DNA from: Polyangiaceae bacterium
GTDB lineage: Bacteria > Myxococcota_A > Polyangia > Polyangiales > Polyangiaceae
Assembly: GCA_029261965.1 (NCBI GenBank)
Contig: JAJDAH010000299.1
Span: forward strand, 1 to 50,344
DNA length: 50,344 nucleotides
Direction: 5' to 3'
Under the pieces are notes generated by a model. It was not told the DNA's origin and did not search any database. It saw only the letters and a program-made list of their open reading frames with translations. Position 1 is the first letter of the stretch. The number at the start of each line of letters is the position of its first letter. Shown one piece after another: positions 1 to 43,621 of this stretch. A program made the translations under genes and the position numbers.

Positions 1-70
1 GATCGCCGACGAGCTCAGTCGGGCAGCGCTTCGAATCGCCGCCGGCGAGCGCGAGGACCGAGAAGCGTGA
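1..70 (+). CDS. 3' end of an unidentified gene
   Basis: An open frame enters from the left edge (codons begin at base 2) and ends at the TGA at 68-70. Only 22 residues are visible; they end in a charged helix-like tail (AGEREDREA). The stop overlaps the GTG start of the next gene as GTGA, the same tight coupling seen throughout the window, so it is probably the preceding member of the sugar operon. The function cannot be told from this fragment. Confidence 0.6.
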   Translation, partial: IADELSRAALRIAAGEREDREA

Positions 71-768
71 ATGCCCGCGTGCGCGGCCCGCGGAGCTACC
101 TCGACGTTCGCTATTCGTCCGAGGCCCGGCCCTACACCGACTATCCCGAGCAGCTCGCGGGACATTTGACCAAGGAGTACCTCGCTGGGCGCCGGGGCGC
201 TTTGCTCGACCTCGGATCAGGCCGCGGCGAGTTTCTGCATGCGTTTGCCAACCAGGGTTTCTCGGCGGTCGGTGTGGATCGCTGTCGACCGACGGAGAAG
301 CGTTTCGCGGAGCGTATCGCGATCGCCGACTTCGAAACCGACGCGCTTCCTTTCGAGGACCAGGCGTTCGACGTCATTTTCAACAAGTCGGTCTTCGAGC
401 ACACCCGTGACATCACGCACCTGTTGAACGAGTGCCACCGAGTGCTGGTTCCCGGGGGGAGGATGATTTCGCTGGTGCCAGATTGGCGGGCGCAATGGCG
501 CCACTTCTTTGACGACTGGACCCACGTTCGGCCGTTCACCGTCGTGGGGCTTTCGGAATGCCTGACGTGTCATGGATTCGACGTGCGGGAGGCCAAGAGG
601 TTTCGCCAGTTGCCGGCTCTTTGGAAGCGTCCGTACCTACACGCTTTTGCCGATGTCGCGGCGCTACTGCCGGAGCGCCTGAAGACGAACAAGATCGTGC
701 GTTTCTCCAAGGAGTGGATGGTTCTAGTCGTCGCCGACCGACCGGAGACGACGGAGGGAAGCGGCTAG
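67..768 (+). CDS. Class I SAM-dependent methyltransferase
   Basis: Predicted cytoplasmic methyltransferase of 233 residues. The SAM-binding glycine loop is visible as LLDLGSGRGEFL (about residues 46-57), followed by GVDRC at the end of strand 2 and FNKSVFEHT with VPGGRMISLVPD, the motif IV/post-motif pattern of the Methyltransf_11/25 families. The GTG start at 67 overlaps the upstream stop by 4 bp; an ATG at 71 is out of frame. It lies in front of the NeuB-NeuA operon, so methylation of a sugar or sugar nucleotide is a reasonable guess, but the acceptor cannot be read from the sequence. A 109-bp spacer separates it from the NeuB-like gene. Confidence 0.8.
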   Translation: MNARVRGPRSYLDVRYSSEARPYTDYPEQLAGHLTKEYLAGRRGALLDLGSGRGEFLHAFANQGFSAVGVDRCRPTEKRFAERIAIADFETDALPFEDQAFDVIFNKSVFEHTRDITHLLNECHRVLVPGGRMISLVPDWRAQWRHFFDDWTHVRPFTVVGLSECLTCHGFDVREAKRFRQLPALWKRPYLHAFADVAALLPERLKTNKIVRFSKEWMVLVVADRPETTEGSG

Positions 769-24317: not shown

Positions 24318-25103
24318 TTACCTCATTTGCGTGGCTGCGCGGAGCATCTCGTCCGCTGCCGCGATGACACGCGAGTTGACTTCGTAGTTTCGCTGGGCGC
24401 CGATGAGACCGATCATTTCTTCGACCACGTCGACGTTGGCTTGTTCGAGGGCGCCCTGAAGTAGTGTGCCCCGACCATCCGCGCCGGGGTTACCGAGCTG
24501 TGGGTCGCCGCTGGCTGCGGATTGCGAGTAGAGATTGTGTCCGAGCGAGCTCAGTCCGGAGGGATTGATGAAAATGGCCGTCTGGATCTGCCCGACATCC
24601 ACCGGCTCGGGTTGCCCGGGAACGGTCGCGCTGACCGCACCGGTGGACGAGATCGAGAGGCTCGTCGCCTCCGGCGGGATCGTGACAGGCGGGTCGAGCA
24701 CCAGGCCTTCGGGAGTGACCAGTCGCCCCTCGCCGTCCGCACGCAGAGTGCCGGACCTCGTGTACGCGGGTGTCCCATCGTTCTGCTGCACGACGAAGAA
24801 GCCGTTGCCCTCGATCGCGACGTCGAGGGGGTTGTTCGTCATGTTGATGGCCCCTTGCTGATGAATGCGAGCGGTCCCGACGACTTTGACTCCGTTGCCG
24901 ACTTGCAAACCTGTCGGATCGACGTTTGTCGGCCCAGTGCGAGCGCCTGGGGCTCGCACCGTCTGGTAGAGCAAGTCCTGAAAGCTCGCGCGCTGCTTCT
25001 TGAAACCAACCGTATTCGCGTTGGCGATGTTGTTCGAAATTGATTCGAGGTTGGTCTGTTGGGCAGACATCCCGGTGGCAGCGACGTGGAGCGATCGAAA
25101 CAT
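24318..25103 (-). CDS. flgG: Distal rod protein FlgG
   Basis: Distal rod subunit. 261 residues, the standard length. The N-terminal signature MFRSLHVAATGMSAQQTNL and NNIANANTVGFKKQRASFQD, GNGFFVVQQNDGTPAYTRSG and the C-terminal ANVDVVEEMIGLIGAQRNYE are diagnostic. ATG 25103 is chosen for the GGAG 9 nt upstream and family N-terminus; a 19-residue extension to 25160 would start upstream of the predicted transcript. It heads flgG-flgA-flgH-flgI-flgJ. No separate flgF is present in the window. Confidence 0.95.
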   Translation of the reverse strand: MFRSLHVAATGMSAQQTNLESISNNIANANTVGFKKQRASFQDLLYQTVRAPGARTGPTNVDPTGLQVGNGVKVVGTARIHQQGAINMTNNPLDVAIEGNGFFVVQQNDGTPAYTRSGTLRADGEGRLVTPEGLVLDPPVTIPPEATSLSISSTGAVSATVPGQPEPVDVGQIQTAIFINPSGLSSLGHNLYSQSAASGDPQLGNPGADGRGTLLQGALEQANVDVVEEMIGLIGAQRNYEVNSRVIAAADEMLRAATQMR

Positions 25104-25155: not shown

Positions 25156-25171
25156 TGCAATGCTGATGCCA
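25156..25171 (-). promoter_or_regulatory. Sigma-54 promoter of the flgG-A-H-I-J operon
   Basis: Minus-strand TGGCATCAGCATTGCA: TGGCA at -24 and a perfect TTGCA at -12 with GG-N10-GC. The predicted start is about 25145, 42 nt before the flgG ATG. It lies just past the stop of the Cys-rich lipoprotein gene. Confidence 0.8.
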
Positions 25172-25175
25172 GCGC

Positions 25176-25547
25176 TCAGCCACCGCCGGCTCCATCGTTG
25201 GCGGCATCTGCGTCGCTCGGTGCGTCCGCATCGGCATCTGCATCTGCGGTGGCGTCTGATGACGAGTCGCTCGCGGCGTCCAGCAGAGGCATCGAAGAGT
25301 CTTCGGTCGAGGCATCAGGCGCTGGCGGCGGATCCGGCGGTCCGTCGGGGTTGGCTGTGCTGCCGCCCTCCGAGCCTCCCTCATCGGATGCGTCGCCGGT
25401 CTGCTTCACGGCGCAGACTCCTTGCCGGCAACGCAAACCGCTCGTGCAATCGCTGTGTCTCAGGCAGGCGTCGGCGCAGCCACTCGTCAGCGCGAGCACG
25501 GCGCCGGCGGCCAGAAGTATCGGAACCAGCAGATCAGAAACGCGCAC
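25176..25547 (-). CDS. Cys-rich lipoprotein with long Asp/Ala/Ser tail, unknown function
   Basis: Exported lipoprotein of 123 residues I cannot assign to a family. A signal ends at LTSGC (Cys 24). It is followed by a compact Cys-rich segment (ADACLRHSDCTSGLRCRQGV then CA; six Cys within about residues 24-46), a small disulfide-knot type common in myxobacterial surface proteins. The remaining ~75 residues are Asp/Ala/Ser/Pro-rich and probably disordered. It overlaps the outer-membrane protein gene by 14 bp, so the two are one transcript, predicted to start from the sigma-54-type site at 26131-26146. This places it in the flagellar regulon by inference only. Confidence 0.7.
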   Translation of the reverse strand: MRVSDLLVPILLAAGAVLALTSGCADACLRHSDCTSGLRCRQGVCAVKQTGDASDEGGSEGGSTANPDGPPDPPPAPDASTEDSSMPLLDAASDSSSDATADADADADAPSDADAANDGAGGG

Positions 25548-26076
25548 GGATACCTGCCGAGAAGAGCGCCCACATCAAGACGCTGTTTTTGGGGAGATCG
25601 CTGCCGAGAGGCAGCGCGTTGAACGAAGGTTCGAGCAGCAAGCTCGTCTTCTTGCCGAGCGGAATGAGAAATTTTGCGCCGACGCCACCTCCTATCAACG
25701 TACGTGGTGCCACTGTGCCGGTGACGTTGACGAACGCCCCTACGCTCTCGGAAAGCCATCGGATGTAGCGGACCTCCGCTCCGATGGCCGCCCGTGGCTC
25801 GATCTCGACGAACGCGCGAAATCCGAATGCCTCGTACTCCGTCTCGTCGACGTGGATGTCCGCCCCGCCGAAGATCCGTGTGCGCGCCCGTTCCCACGCG
25901 ATGCTGCTGTCGCCCGGATTGCCGCCCTGAAGGCCCGTGGCCAGCCCGAGCTCGCCGTCCACGACCCACCTCTGCGCGAGCGCCTCGGGCGCCAGAAGTG
26001 TGGCGGCAATGAACGTCGCGACCGTGACGCTGAGCCGAATCTGCCAGCTGAATTTCGAGGAGTTTGGATGAATCAC
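25534..26076 (-). CDS. Predicted outer-membrane beta-barrel protein, unknown function
   Basis: A 180-residue exported protein. The signal peptide (VATFIAATLLAPEALA) is followed by alternating strands such as ARTRIFGGADIHVDE, YEAFGFRAFVEIEPRAAIG, LIGGGVGAKFLIPLGKKTSLL, and the chain ends in the aromatic strand FSAGIRARF, as in outer-membrane barrels of about eight strands. I recognise no named family. The start is GTG 26076. It sits between the fleQ terminator and the flgG operon, with a sigma-54-type promoter 55-70 bp upstream, so coexpression with the flagellum is likely. Possible roles include an outer-membrane collar, sheath or motility-related envelope protein; all are speculative. Confidence 0.7.
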   Translation of the reverse strand: MIHPNSSKFSWQIRLSVTVATFIAATLLAPEALAQRWVVDGELGLATGLQGGNPGDSSIAWERARTRIFGGADIHVDETEYEAFGFRAFVEIEPRAAIGAEVRYIRWLSESVGAFVNVTGTVAPRTLIGGGVGAKFLIPLGKKTSLLLEPSFNALPLGSDLPKNSVLMWALFSAGIRARF

Positions 26077-26130
26077 GGCGTGATGACTGGGGTCTTGCTT
26101 GTGGCCCGCTCGTACTCTGGTCCCACTGAT

Positions 26131-26146
26131 CGCAAGCCGCGCGCCA
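26131..26146 (-). promoter_or_regulatory. Sigma-54 promoter of the outer-membrane protein/lipoprotein pair
   Basis: Minus-strand TGGCGCGCGGCTTGCG: TGGC and TTGC with GG-N10-GC. The predicted start is about 26120, a 44-nt leader before GTG 26076. It lies between the fleQ terminator and the gene it would drive. Confidence 0.65.
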
Positions 26147-26219: not shown

Positions 26220-27350
26220 TCAGGCCGCTTTCGACATGCGCTTGCGCTTCAGCATCTCGACCAAGGTGGTCCGGTTGAGCCCCAGCAATTGGGCCGCGCG
26301 GTTTTTGTTCCAGCTCGTCCGGTCGAGCGCCTGACGGATCAGGCCGTTCTCGAAGAGCTCGACAGCGTTGCGCAGATCGATGCCGGAATCTGGTAGCTGA
26401 GGCGCAGCGCGTCGTTCGCCGCCGAGCCCGCGAACGCGTGAGGGCAGGTCTTGCGGCTCAATCCGCTCGCCGGCAATGAGCAAGACCGCGCGCGCTATCG
26501 TGTTCTCGAGCTCTCGAACGTTGCCGGGCCAGTCGTATGTGACCAAGAGCTGGGCGGCGGAGCGGGAGATTCCCGAAACGTTTCGACCGGTCTTTTTGCG
26601 AGCCTGAATGAGGAAGTGTTGCACCAACAGCGGCACGTCCTCAGCACGCTCACGCAGCGGCGGAACGTCGAGATGGATGACGTTGAGCCGGTAGTACAGA
26701 TCCTCGCGGAAGGTTCCCGCCGCGACGGCCTTTTCCAAATCGATGTTCGTGGCAGCGACGATTCGCACGTCGGCCTGAAGCGTCCGTGTGTCGCCCACAG
26801 GGGAGTACTCGTGGCTCTGCAGGATGCGGAGCAGCTTCACCTGGAGCGCGAGCGGCATCTCGCCAATTTCGTCGAGAAACAGCGTGCCACCCTGGGCTTG
26901 GGCGATGCGCCCCGCCTTCGCCGCGTGGGCGCCGGTAAAGGCACCTCGGGCGTGCCCGAACAACTCGCTCTCGAGAAGGTTTTCGGGGATGGCGCCGCAG
27001 TTGATGGCGACGAAGCTCGCCTCGTTGCGCGGGCTCGCGCTGTGTACTGCGCGCGCTACGAGCTCTTTGCCCGTGCCGCTCTCACCGGTCACGAGCACCG
27101 TGCAATCGGTGTCCGCGACTCGATCGATGACCCGATAGAGGTCGACGAGCGATTCGGCGCTACCGATGACTCCAGCCATGCTTCGCGGCATCTGGCCTGA
27201 GACTCTCGGAGCCGGCGTGCCCTCGACGTCACTGATCTCCCCACCTGCCGGGAACACTCCCGAGTCGAACACTCCCGAGCCGCGCTCCTCGTCGTCCAAG
27301 CGAATGGTGATGTTTTCTGTCGGGGCGGCGTTGTCGGTGGTGTTCATCAT
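26220..27350 (-). CDS. FleQ/FlgR-like sigma-54 activator lacking a receiver domain
   Basis: Enhancer-binding ATPase that opens sigma-54 promoters. From ATG 27350 it has 376 residues: about 60 residues of disordered lead, then an AAA+ core with Walker A GESGTGKE, the sigma-54 contact loop GAFTGA, Walker B TLFLDEIGEM and RLNVIHLDVPPLRER, and a Fis-type HTH at the C-terminus (NKNRAAQLLGLNRTTLVE) of FleQ/FlrA type. Neither a receiver nor a recognisable FleQ N-terminal domain is present. The start is uncertain: GAAGGAG lies 12 nt before 27350, while ATGs at 27362 and 27371 also fit; 27479 would precede the predicted transcript. It is the obvious activator for the sigma-54 sites here, including its own. 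Confidence 0.9.
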   Translation of the reverse strand: MMNTTDNAAPTENITIRLDDEERGSGVFDSGVFPAGGEISDVEGTPAPRVSGQMPRSMAGVIGSAESLVDLYRVIDRVADTDCTVLVTGESGTGKELVARAVHSASPRNEASFVAINCGAIPENLLESELFGHARGAFTGAHAAKAGRIAQAQGGTLFLDEIGEMPLALQVKLLRILQSHEYSPVGDTRTLQADVRIVAATNIDLEKAVAAGTFREDLYYRLNVIHLDVPPLRERAEDVPLLVQHFLIQARKKTGRNVSGISRSAAQLLVTYDWPGNVRELENTIARAVLLIAGERIEPQDLPSRVRGLGGERRAAPQLPDSGIDLRNAVELFENGLIRQALDRTSWNKNRAAQLLGLNRTTLVEMLKRKRMSKAA

Positions 27351-27400
27351 TTGAAAAGTCATCTCCTTCATGGACCCAAACGCGGGTGAACCATCGCCAG

Positions 27401-27416
27401 AGCAAGGCGCGGGCCA
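27401..27416 (-). promoter_or_regulatory. Sigma-54 promoter of fleQ
   Basis: Minus-strand TGGCCCGCGCCTTGCT: one mismatch in the -24 box and perfect TTGC at -12, GG-N10-GC. The predicted start is about 27390, which excludes the longest reading frame start at 27479 and suggests self-activation of fleQ. Confidence 0.7.
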
Positions 27417-27738
27417 ACCGCCAGAAACCTGGCTGCTAGGCGTGGAACTCTTGGCGATTGCCGGTTTGGTCGAGTCCACGCGAGACGCGCGTCATGGGTC
27501 AGGAGTTACCCAGGCAACTTCCGCGTGGGACAAAGTCCGACAGGTCAATTATCACTAATAAATGCGAATAGTTATGTGATGATTCGACAGGGTCGAGGCA
27601 TGGCGGGTCAAAAAAACCCCATGAGGTCGCTAGACACCCATGGCGCTGCGGCCAAACGTCTCGATGTCGTCTTGGACGGCCGAAATCGCCAAGCCTTGAG
27701 CTGAATGTTTCAGCCGGTATCGGCCGCCACCGAGCGCC
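27417..27738. promoter_or_regulatory. Divergent control region between fleQ and flgB
   Basis: No gene. About 320 bp lie between the back-to-back sigma-54-type promoters of fleQ and flgB. It contains an AT-rich island (about 27540-27585, in otherwise GC-rich DNA) with a GATAAT hexamer on the minus strand (27548-27553), a possible sigma-70 -10 element, and an A-run within GGG...CCC (27606-27620). An activator enhancer and a bending-protein site would be expected here, but I cannot define their sequence. Confidence 0.4.
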
Positions 27739-42535: not shown

Positions 42536-43621
42536 GTGACGAAGACCCGCCTTACTTTCCTGATGCTGGGTGCGATTCTTGTGGTTGGGTGTGGGGGCTC
42601 CGAGTCGAGCGTTTCAGGCGCGGCGGGCGCCGACGGTTCGGGTGGTGCAACGAGCGTCGGAGGAGCAGCGGGTTCGGCTGGGCAAGCCGGGGGTCCGACC
42701 GGAGGCGCGGGTGCGCCGACGTTCTTGGACGAGTTCAGCGTGGAGATTGGGCCAATCTCGGTTCAACCCGGCGTCGAGCGCACCCAATGCGTCGTCAAGC
42801 GCCTCGGCAATCCGACGCCCATCAACGTCGGAAGGGTGAGCAACGTCATCAGCAGCTCGTCCCACCACATGATCGTCTACAAGAGCAGCGACACGACGGA
42901 ACGTCCTCAACCGTTCAGCTGCACGCCGTTTCTCGACACCCTCAACCCGGCGAATGGGGCCCCGCTCTTGATTTCTCAGCGCAAGGACGACGAGCTGGTC
43001 TTGCCTCGGGGAGTGGCTTTCCAACTCGATGCCGACCAGATGATTCGGCTCGAGCTCCACTACATCAACACTCAACCCGATCCGCTCGACGTGGTCGCCT
43101 CCTCGACCTTCTCGACGATTCCGGATGAGCAGTTCGAGCAGGCCGCGGATTTCATGTTTCTCGGAACCCCTGACATTTCGATTCCCCCTCGGTCCGAATG
43201 GTCCGTGACCTCGCATCTCGCGCTCCCGCCGGAGCTCGAAGGGGTCGAATACTTCGCCATCACGGGTCACACACACCAACTTGGGACCAGCGTGAGCATC
43301 GCCACCGCGACGGATGCCGGCGACCCGGGTACCGCGGTCTACGACGTGCCGGGGTGGCTCTGGGACGAGCCAGACACGGTGATTCACGACCCGCCGTTCC
43401 GCGTCCCGTCCGGTGGGGGGTTCAACTTCACGTGCAACTACAACAACACGACGAATCGGAACGTGCAGTTCGGAGAATCCGTCGACGCCGAGATGTGCTT
43501 CTTCTGGGCGTACTACTACCCGAGCCAGGGTTCGAAGCTCTGCGTGCACACCGACATGTTCCTTGGTGGCATAGACGCGTGCTGTCCGGGTAGCCCGATC
43601 TGCGATCTCATCGCGTTCTAG
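42536..43621 (+). CDS. Lipoprotein resembling copper type II monooxygenases (PHM/DBH fold)
   Basis: Exported lipoprotein of 361 residues. The lipobox VVGC is at Cys 19, followed by a Gly/Ala/Ser linker to about residue 60. The rest matches the peptidylglycine alpha-hydroxylating monooxygenase fold. All six copper ligands of PHM have counterparts: His 110-His 111 (SSSHHMIVYK) and His 175 (LELHYINT) for CuH; His 245 and His 247 (TGHTHQLG) and Met 320 (DAEMCFFW) for CuM. Such enzymes hydroxylate C-H bonds using O2 and ascorbate. The gene is on the same strand between flhB and flhA but in its own gap; a flagellar link is only positional. The substrate is unknown. Confidence 0.82.
   Translation: MTKTRLTFLMLGAILVVGCGGSESSVSGAAGADGSGGATSVGGAAGSAGQAGGPTGGAGAPTFLDEFSVEIGPISVQPGVERTQCVVKRLGNPTPINVGRVSNVISSSSHHMIVYKSSDTTERPQPFSCTPFLDTLNPANGAPLLISQRKDDELVLPRGVAFQLDADQMIRLELHYINTQPDPLDVVASSTFSTIPDEQFEQAADFMFLGTPDISIPPRSEWSVTSHLALPPELEGVEYFAITGHTHQLGTSVSIATATDAGDPGTAVYDVPGWLWDEPDTVIHDPPFRVPSGGGFNFTCNYNNTTNRNVQFGESVDAEMCFFWAYYYPSQGSKLCVHTDMFLGGIDACCPGSPICDLIAF

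Follow-up and report, generated by a model that had tools for sequence, protein, structure and literature searches.

What do two exported proteins of no named family contribute to the flagellum, if their genes lie in the middle of a flagellar gene cluster? We addressed this question in a window of 50,344 nucleotides (the whole stretch of DNA that was analysed), the content of which is a whole flagellar cluster. The window belongs to a GC-rich, myxobacterial-type genome of 9.6 Mb in 480 contigs. The original prediction placed a tight gene pair between fleQ and flgG and proposed it as a candidate for a lineage-specific outer-membrane part of the flagellum. Both open reading frames were found at that location, between the activator gene and the flgG start codon (ATG at ~25103), and they overlap (Table 1). 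In the product of the neighbour called fleQ, Pfam detected only AAA+ and Fis-type HTH domains, and no FleQ or receiver domain in its N-terminal region of ~100 residues.

Table 1 Features of the barrel-lipoprotein locus in the window, and related loci
Feature	Position	Strand	Evidence
Predicted 8-stranded outer-membrane beta-barrel protein, 180 aa	25534..26076	(-)	ORF; AlphaFold2; fold matches; 46-member family alignment
Barrel protein: signal peptide ~residues 1-34; mature barrel 35-180			
Putative Cys-rich outer-membrane lipoprotein, 123 aa	25176..25547	(-)	ORF; motif conserved in orthologous loci
Overlap of barrel and lipoprotein genes, 14 nt	25534..25547	(-)	ORF coordinates
Lipidated Cys and four-Cys mini-domain, C-x3-C-x-R-x-S-D-C-x5-C-x4-C	25413..25478	(-)	Spacing near-invariant in 58 loci
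Flanking sigma-54 activator gene (FleQ/FlbD-like; AAA+ and Fis HTH)	26220..27479	(-)	Pfam and NCBIfam
Flanking flgG, first gene of flgG-flgA-flgH-flgI	24318..25103	(-)	TIGR02488, 346.6 bits
Sigma-54 (-24/-12) promoter of the pair, TGGCGCGCGGCTTGCG	26131..26146	(-)	Motif score; comparable sites in relatives
Separate sigma-54-like site upstream of flgG, TGGCATCAGCATTGCA	25156..25171	(-)	Score 14.7 of 15.2
Strong sigma-54-like site, fliD	13996-13981	(-)	Gene assigned by position
Strong sigma-54-like site, flgB	27739	(+)	Gene assigned by position
Strong sigma-54-like site, flgD	34718	(+)	Gene assigned by position
Strong sigma-54-like site, fliW	48588	(+)	Gene assigned by position
Loci of family f37 with a divergently paired barrel homologue: L145, L146, L149, L150, L151, L153, L154, L156, L164			

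We searched 145 relatives for the barrel protein and aligned 46 orthologues, which share 21-55% identity with the window protein. The lipoprotein gene lies directly downstream of the barrel gene in all 44 of these first-set loci with sequence at that point, and the remaining two of the 46 stop at a contig edge. The overlap is exactly 14 nt in 15 of the 46 loci and 4 nt in 13, and an overlapping lipoprotein start codon is available in 38. The two genes are likely to be translationally coupled through the 14-nt overlap.

The original prediction described one protein of the pair as an outer-membrane barrel, and the structure prediction agrees. The AlphaFold2 model computed from the 46-orthologue alignment has eight strands at a mean pLDDT of 92.8. 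It forms a closed antiparallel barrel and matches NspA, the OprF N-domain, OmpA and OmpW at Z scores of 14-17 (16.5 for both NspA and the OprF N-domain). The protein is thus predicted to belong to the class of small 8-stranded outer-membrane beta-barrels (OmpA/OmpX/NspA). Family members carry an N-terminal hydrophobic signal (by inspection) and in 44 of 46 cases end in L, F or I; the barrel presumably sits in the outer membrane. Although it shares the eight-stranded fold of OmpA/OprF/NspA/OmpW-type barrels, it is only 8-13% identical to them and differs in its very short, highly conserved extracellular loops and in its occurrence in flagellar operons.

The proteins were also said to belong to no recognised family, which held up. 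Pfam and NCBIfam scans gave neither window protein a family name, and a PDB sequence search with the barrel profile returned no match. The Pfam family OMP_b-brl (PF13505) did not match the window barrel and matched four of the 46 members (best E 5.2e-5). According to Pfam, the OmpA peptidoglycan-binding domain (PF00691) is missing from the barrel protein and its family, and neither protein of the pair has a periplasmic peptidoglycan-binding domain.

The termini of small outer-membrane barrels are periplasmic as standard, and we oriented the model accordingly to compare conservation on its two sides. With the termini taken as periplasmic, the extracellular rim and its three-residue shoulders reach 2.63 bits, compared with 1.84 bits for the periplasmic turns. 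The conserved residues, which cluster at this extracellular rim, comprise G48-x-E-G-G52, E91-x-E93-P, P124-x-T-L and G158-x-D-L-P162 (motifs SGxEGG, ExEP, PxTL and GxDLP). In ordinary porins the surface loops are normally the variable part. The reverse pattern seen here makes a fixed binding partner at the rim plausible.

The second protein begins with a signal peptide and a lipobox (L-T-S-G-C24). A mini-domain with four Cys follows, and then a tail of 72 residues that is disordered, acidic and rich in Asp, Ala, Ser and Pro. The family motif is C-x(3-6)-C-x-R-x-[ST]-D-C-x5-C-x4-C, and C24, C28, C34, C40 and C45 are invariant among 51 aligned sequences. By these sequence features, above all the invariant lipobox Cys, the protein is a putative outer-membrane lipoprotein. 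The tail varies from 6 to 180 residues across loci and is of low complexity (Asp/Ala-, Gly- or Thr/Gly-rich). A small Cys-knot lipoprotein had been proposed. The Cys-rich lipoprotein with its lipobox is borne out, but the lipid-anchored Cys is followed by four Cys, which allow two disulphides at most, and the predicted structure of the mini-domain (pLDDT ~89) is a small hairpin rather than a knot. The mini-domain appears distantly similar to the myxobacterial Cys repeat TIGR04201 (Myxo_Cys_RPT), which scored 13.3 bits (E 0.071) against the window lipoprotein fragment, below the curated cut-off of 25 bits, and gave weak matches in 25 of the 51 members (best E 2e-4). The lipoprotein profile alone is not specific, because it found weaker Cys-rich matches in every genome. 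In most flagellated genomes the flagellar-linked copy was clearly the best match (E ~1e-8 to 1e-17).

The pair was further predicted to have its own sigma-54-type promoter. The site at 26146-26131 conforms to the -24/-12 consensus: its GG and GC elements are spaced ten bases apart. Its score of 14.7 of 15.2 is the joint best across the 50-kb window and was reached in none of 2000 shuffles of the 143-nt upstream region. The window has eight sites scoring at least 14.2, against ~1.2 expected. Since flgG has a sigma-54-like site of its own, the pair may be transcribed as a separate unit, and the strong sites before flgG, fliD, flgB, flgD and fliW suggest sigma-54 control of much of the flagellar cluster. 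A comparable site precedes the pair in 12 of 13 loci of the fleQ type, window included (shuffle p ≤ 0.035 each). In loci with motB immediately upstream of the pair, by contrast, the barrel gene as a rule lacks a preceding sigma-54 site, and motA mostly lacks one as well. A sigma-54 promoter as a general feature of the pair was thereby ruled out: the promoter is real for the subclade of the window but does not define the pair.

We compared the distribution of the barrel, detected with the family profile, to that of FlgG. The barrel occurs in 57 of the 145 relatives: 52 have both proteins, five the barrel only, seven FlgG only and 81 neither (Fisher p ~1e-25, without phylogenetic correction). 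Flagellin is present in all five genomes with the barrel only (G044, G069, G118, G136 and G138), and G044 and G069 also have FlgI, so the missing FlgG looks like the result of assembly gaps. In six genera (g5, g13, g21, g28, g31 and g42), one species has barrel and FlgG and another has neither, which points to repeated joint loss of the pair and the flagellum. Three matches in non-flagellated genomes (G004, G041 and G017) from a single-sequence search were lost with the family profile. As a separate observation, G044 (locus L066) has fifteen Flagellin_N matches, an unusually large set for one genome.

We extended the comparison to a sample of 331 genomes across the phylum. Within the same class but outside the order, the barrel was found in 13 of 14 FlgG-positive genomes and, among the genomes listed, in no FlgG-negative one. 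Clear matches without FlgG at the phylum level were confined to G044, G283 and G370, all of which have flagellin. One weak, partial match (G325, E 5e-4) was not counted as a member. Homologues common in non-flagellated relatives had been named as the finding that would speak against a flagellar part; apart from the weak match in G325, neither the 145 relatives nor the 331-genome sample yielded a barrel-positive genome that lacks flagellar genes. A single-sequence barrel scan of genome contigs gave no match. A 10-row barrel alignment searched against genome contigs gave ten loci, from Polyangia, Polyangiaceae or Myxococcales and including two labelled only as a proteobacterium or a delta proteobacterium MAG; most of the pair's nearest relatives that carry a name are MAGs under the labels Polyangia, Polyangiaceae or Myxococcales. 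These results support a lineage-specific pair: it belongs to the class Polyangia, and its relatives in other classes of Myxococcota are divergent. The seven flagellated relatives without the barrel (G008, G046, G048, G071, G083, G089 and G122), of which five belong to the same family and retain a near-intact surrounding flagellar locus, indicate an accessory rather than a core flagellar part. At the site of the pair in G008, between flgG and the activator gene (locus L082), there is a gap of 550 bp in which neither the barrel nor the lipoprotein has an intact frame; the pair may have been lost there recently.

The gene order around the pair varies. The order motA-motB-barrel-lipoprotein-flgG prevails in most of the family, and the pair follows motA-motB again in the distant family f15. 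The subclade of the window has the order activator-barrel-lipoprotein-flgG, two genomes have flgA-barrel-lipoprotein-flgH, several families have fliC-fliD-fliS-barrel-lipoprotein, and in family f6 the pair lies beside flhA/flhF. Of the Polyangia loci with enough sequence to judge, nearly all have flagellar neighbours; a few loci, among them L173, L177 and L178, have no flagellar neighbour in the stretch read.

The constant pairing, the nearly constant location in flagellar clusters and the occurrence only with flagellum genes suggest that the swimming flagellum probably has, in this pair, an outer-membrane part not described before. Our main reading, to which we assign a probability of roughly 0.6, is that the pair is a dedicated outer-membrane accessory of the Polyangia flagellum, copies of which form a ring, collar or anchor around the L ring or the filament exit. 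The small OmpA-type barrel would be embedded in the outer membrane, and the lipoprotein would rest against it through the compact Cys-rich domain at its lipid anchor, with the disordered hydrophilic tail pointing away. Because the mini-domain begins some three to six residues past the anchor, it would have to lie against the membrane, by the rim of the barrel. Several copies of the pair would most likely encircle the L ring (FlgH) or the filament exit site, and the module may form a seal around the rotating shaft or reinforce the outer membrane there, brace the stator/L-ring region, or both. Such a role would resemble that of the Helicobacter FapH ring or the Vibrio H-ring, with another kind of protein as the building material. 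We infer the contact between barrel and lipoprotein, the ring and the sealing or anchoring role from the models, the conservation and the gene context.

An unlikely alternative is that barrel and lipoprotein anchor the stator against torque by tying the MotAB region to the outer membrane. In most of the family, and also in f15, the pair stands directly after motA-motB, which would fit such a role, and there is a parallel in the same phylum. In the gliding machine of Myxococcus xanthus, the OmpA-like outer-membrane barrels GltA and GltB are part of a trans-envelope complex, and the outer-membrane lipoprotein CglC aids their integration into the outer membrane (PMC4488436). This system, likened to the pair by description only, is the nearest in layout (OmpA-type barrels with an outer-membrane lipoprotein in a motility machine of the same phylum), but it serves gliding and not the flagellum, and a TPR partner of the GltC type was not seen with the pair. 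Other families, however, place the pair with fliC-fliD-fliS or fleQ and not with motAB, the motA-motB genes of the window are ~17 kb away, and both proteins lack a periplasmic peptidoglycan-binding domain. Lineage-specific scaffolds that surround the motor and are tied to stator assembly are known from elsewhere, namely the H-ring and T-ring of Vibrio (FlgO, FlgP, FlgT, MotX and MotY) and the FlgP basal disk of Campylobacter (PMC7990780). They include outer-membrane lipoproteins, as the pair does, but consist of these and periplasmic proteins and not of integral barrels. The FlgO, FlgP and FlgT families had no Pfam match in either protein or its family, and a search for FlgO (PF17680) found no match in the genome of the window and likewise none in any control genome.

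Still less probable, in our view, is a part of a flagellar sheath or surface, in which the barrel would enter an outer-membrane sheath around the filament and present on the surface the Cys-rich lipoprotein, whose tail would resemble a brush. In several families the pair clusters with fliC-fliD-fliS, which is compatible with this, as is the conserved extracellular rim, and outer-membrane barrels are known in sheaths elsewhere (Vibrio OmpU/OmpT and Helicobacter FaaA; PMC7175336). The Cys repeat is also similar in type to that of TraA, a myxobacterial protein with the repeat TIGR04201 that is a proposed surface receptor and is encoded with TraB by an overlapping gene pair (PMC3325183). TraA has a Cys spacing similar to that of the lipoprotein, and the genes of our pair overlap as well. 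The lipoprotein nevertheless differs from it in scoring below the TIGR04201 cut-off and in having a single copy immediately next to the lipid anchor, and neither PA14 nor MYXO-CTERM was seen in it; TraB contains the PF00691 domain that the barrel lacks. Against a sheath role, the sheath review does not mention myxobacteria (PMC7175336), and some flagellated relatives have no pair.

A general outer-membrane protein and lipoprotein of non-flagellar function that merely hitch-hike in the flagellar region could be expected from the abundance of Cys-rich lipoproteins of this general type in the phylum and from homologues outside flagellar clusters in family f37, but this explanation is strongly disfavoured and very improbable, given a flagellar context kept through many rearrangements, the joint loss in six genera, the absence of pairs without flagellar genes and the clearly weaker matches of the other lipoprotein copies in most flagellated genomes. 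In f37, a family of another class, a divergent barrel homologue forms a divergent pair with a larger Cys-rich lipoprotein; the two genes lie away from flagellar clusters, in genomes in which flagellar genes are still present. The partnership may therefore predate its flagellar confinement, and its ancestral role may be broader. Whether the relatives in f37 and f48 are orthologues of the barrel is uncertain.

We compared the dedicated outer-membrane accessory of our main reading with described flagellar parts. The nearest described case by function is FapH (HP0838) of Helicobacter pylori, a lipoprotein that forms a ring and is encoded in the same operon as the motor accessory gene flgP; it is dispensable for soft-agar motility and protects the outer-membrane barrier during rotation (PMC11756786). 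Like the module proposed here, the FapH ring is a lineage-specific flagellar accessory that is associated with the outer membrane and includes a lipoprotein. It has no known barrel partner and comes from a different phylum, and we compared it with the pair by description only. Lineage-specific outer-membrane parts are known for the motors of Vibrio and Campylobacterota, and our searches turned up none for flagellated Myxococcota. The ring-forming parts described so far are lipoproteins and periplasmic proteins, not small integral barrels. A literature search, with subscription literature mostly outside its scope, found no earlier account of such a barrel in flagellar motors or of flagellar outer-membrane parts in Myxococcota.

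It is possible, at somewhat less than even odds, that a dedicated integral beta-barrel and a Cys-rich lipoprotein make up a class-wide, undescribed flagellar outer-membrane substructure that arose in parallel to the barrel-plus-lipoprotein layout of the gliding motor in the same phylum. The lineage-specific distribution and the linkage to flagellar operons support the proposal of a lineage-specific part tied to the flagellum. The pair provides named, testable candidates for an outer-membrane part of the flagellum in the Polyangia, a large group from soil and water whose members are mostly uncultured. Because the module was repeatedly lost together with the flagellum, it is relevant to the retention, loss and modification of flagella in a phylum famed for gliding.

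Elsewhere in the cluster, between flhB and flhA (42536-43621, plus strand), we observed a gene whose product resembles a lipoprotein and is rich in Gly and Ala in its N-terminal region. The C-terminal part of this product matches the copper type II monooxygenase domain PF03712 (E 3e-12); such a protein is unusual among flagellar export genes.
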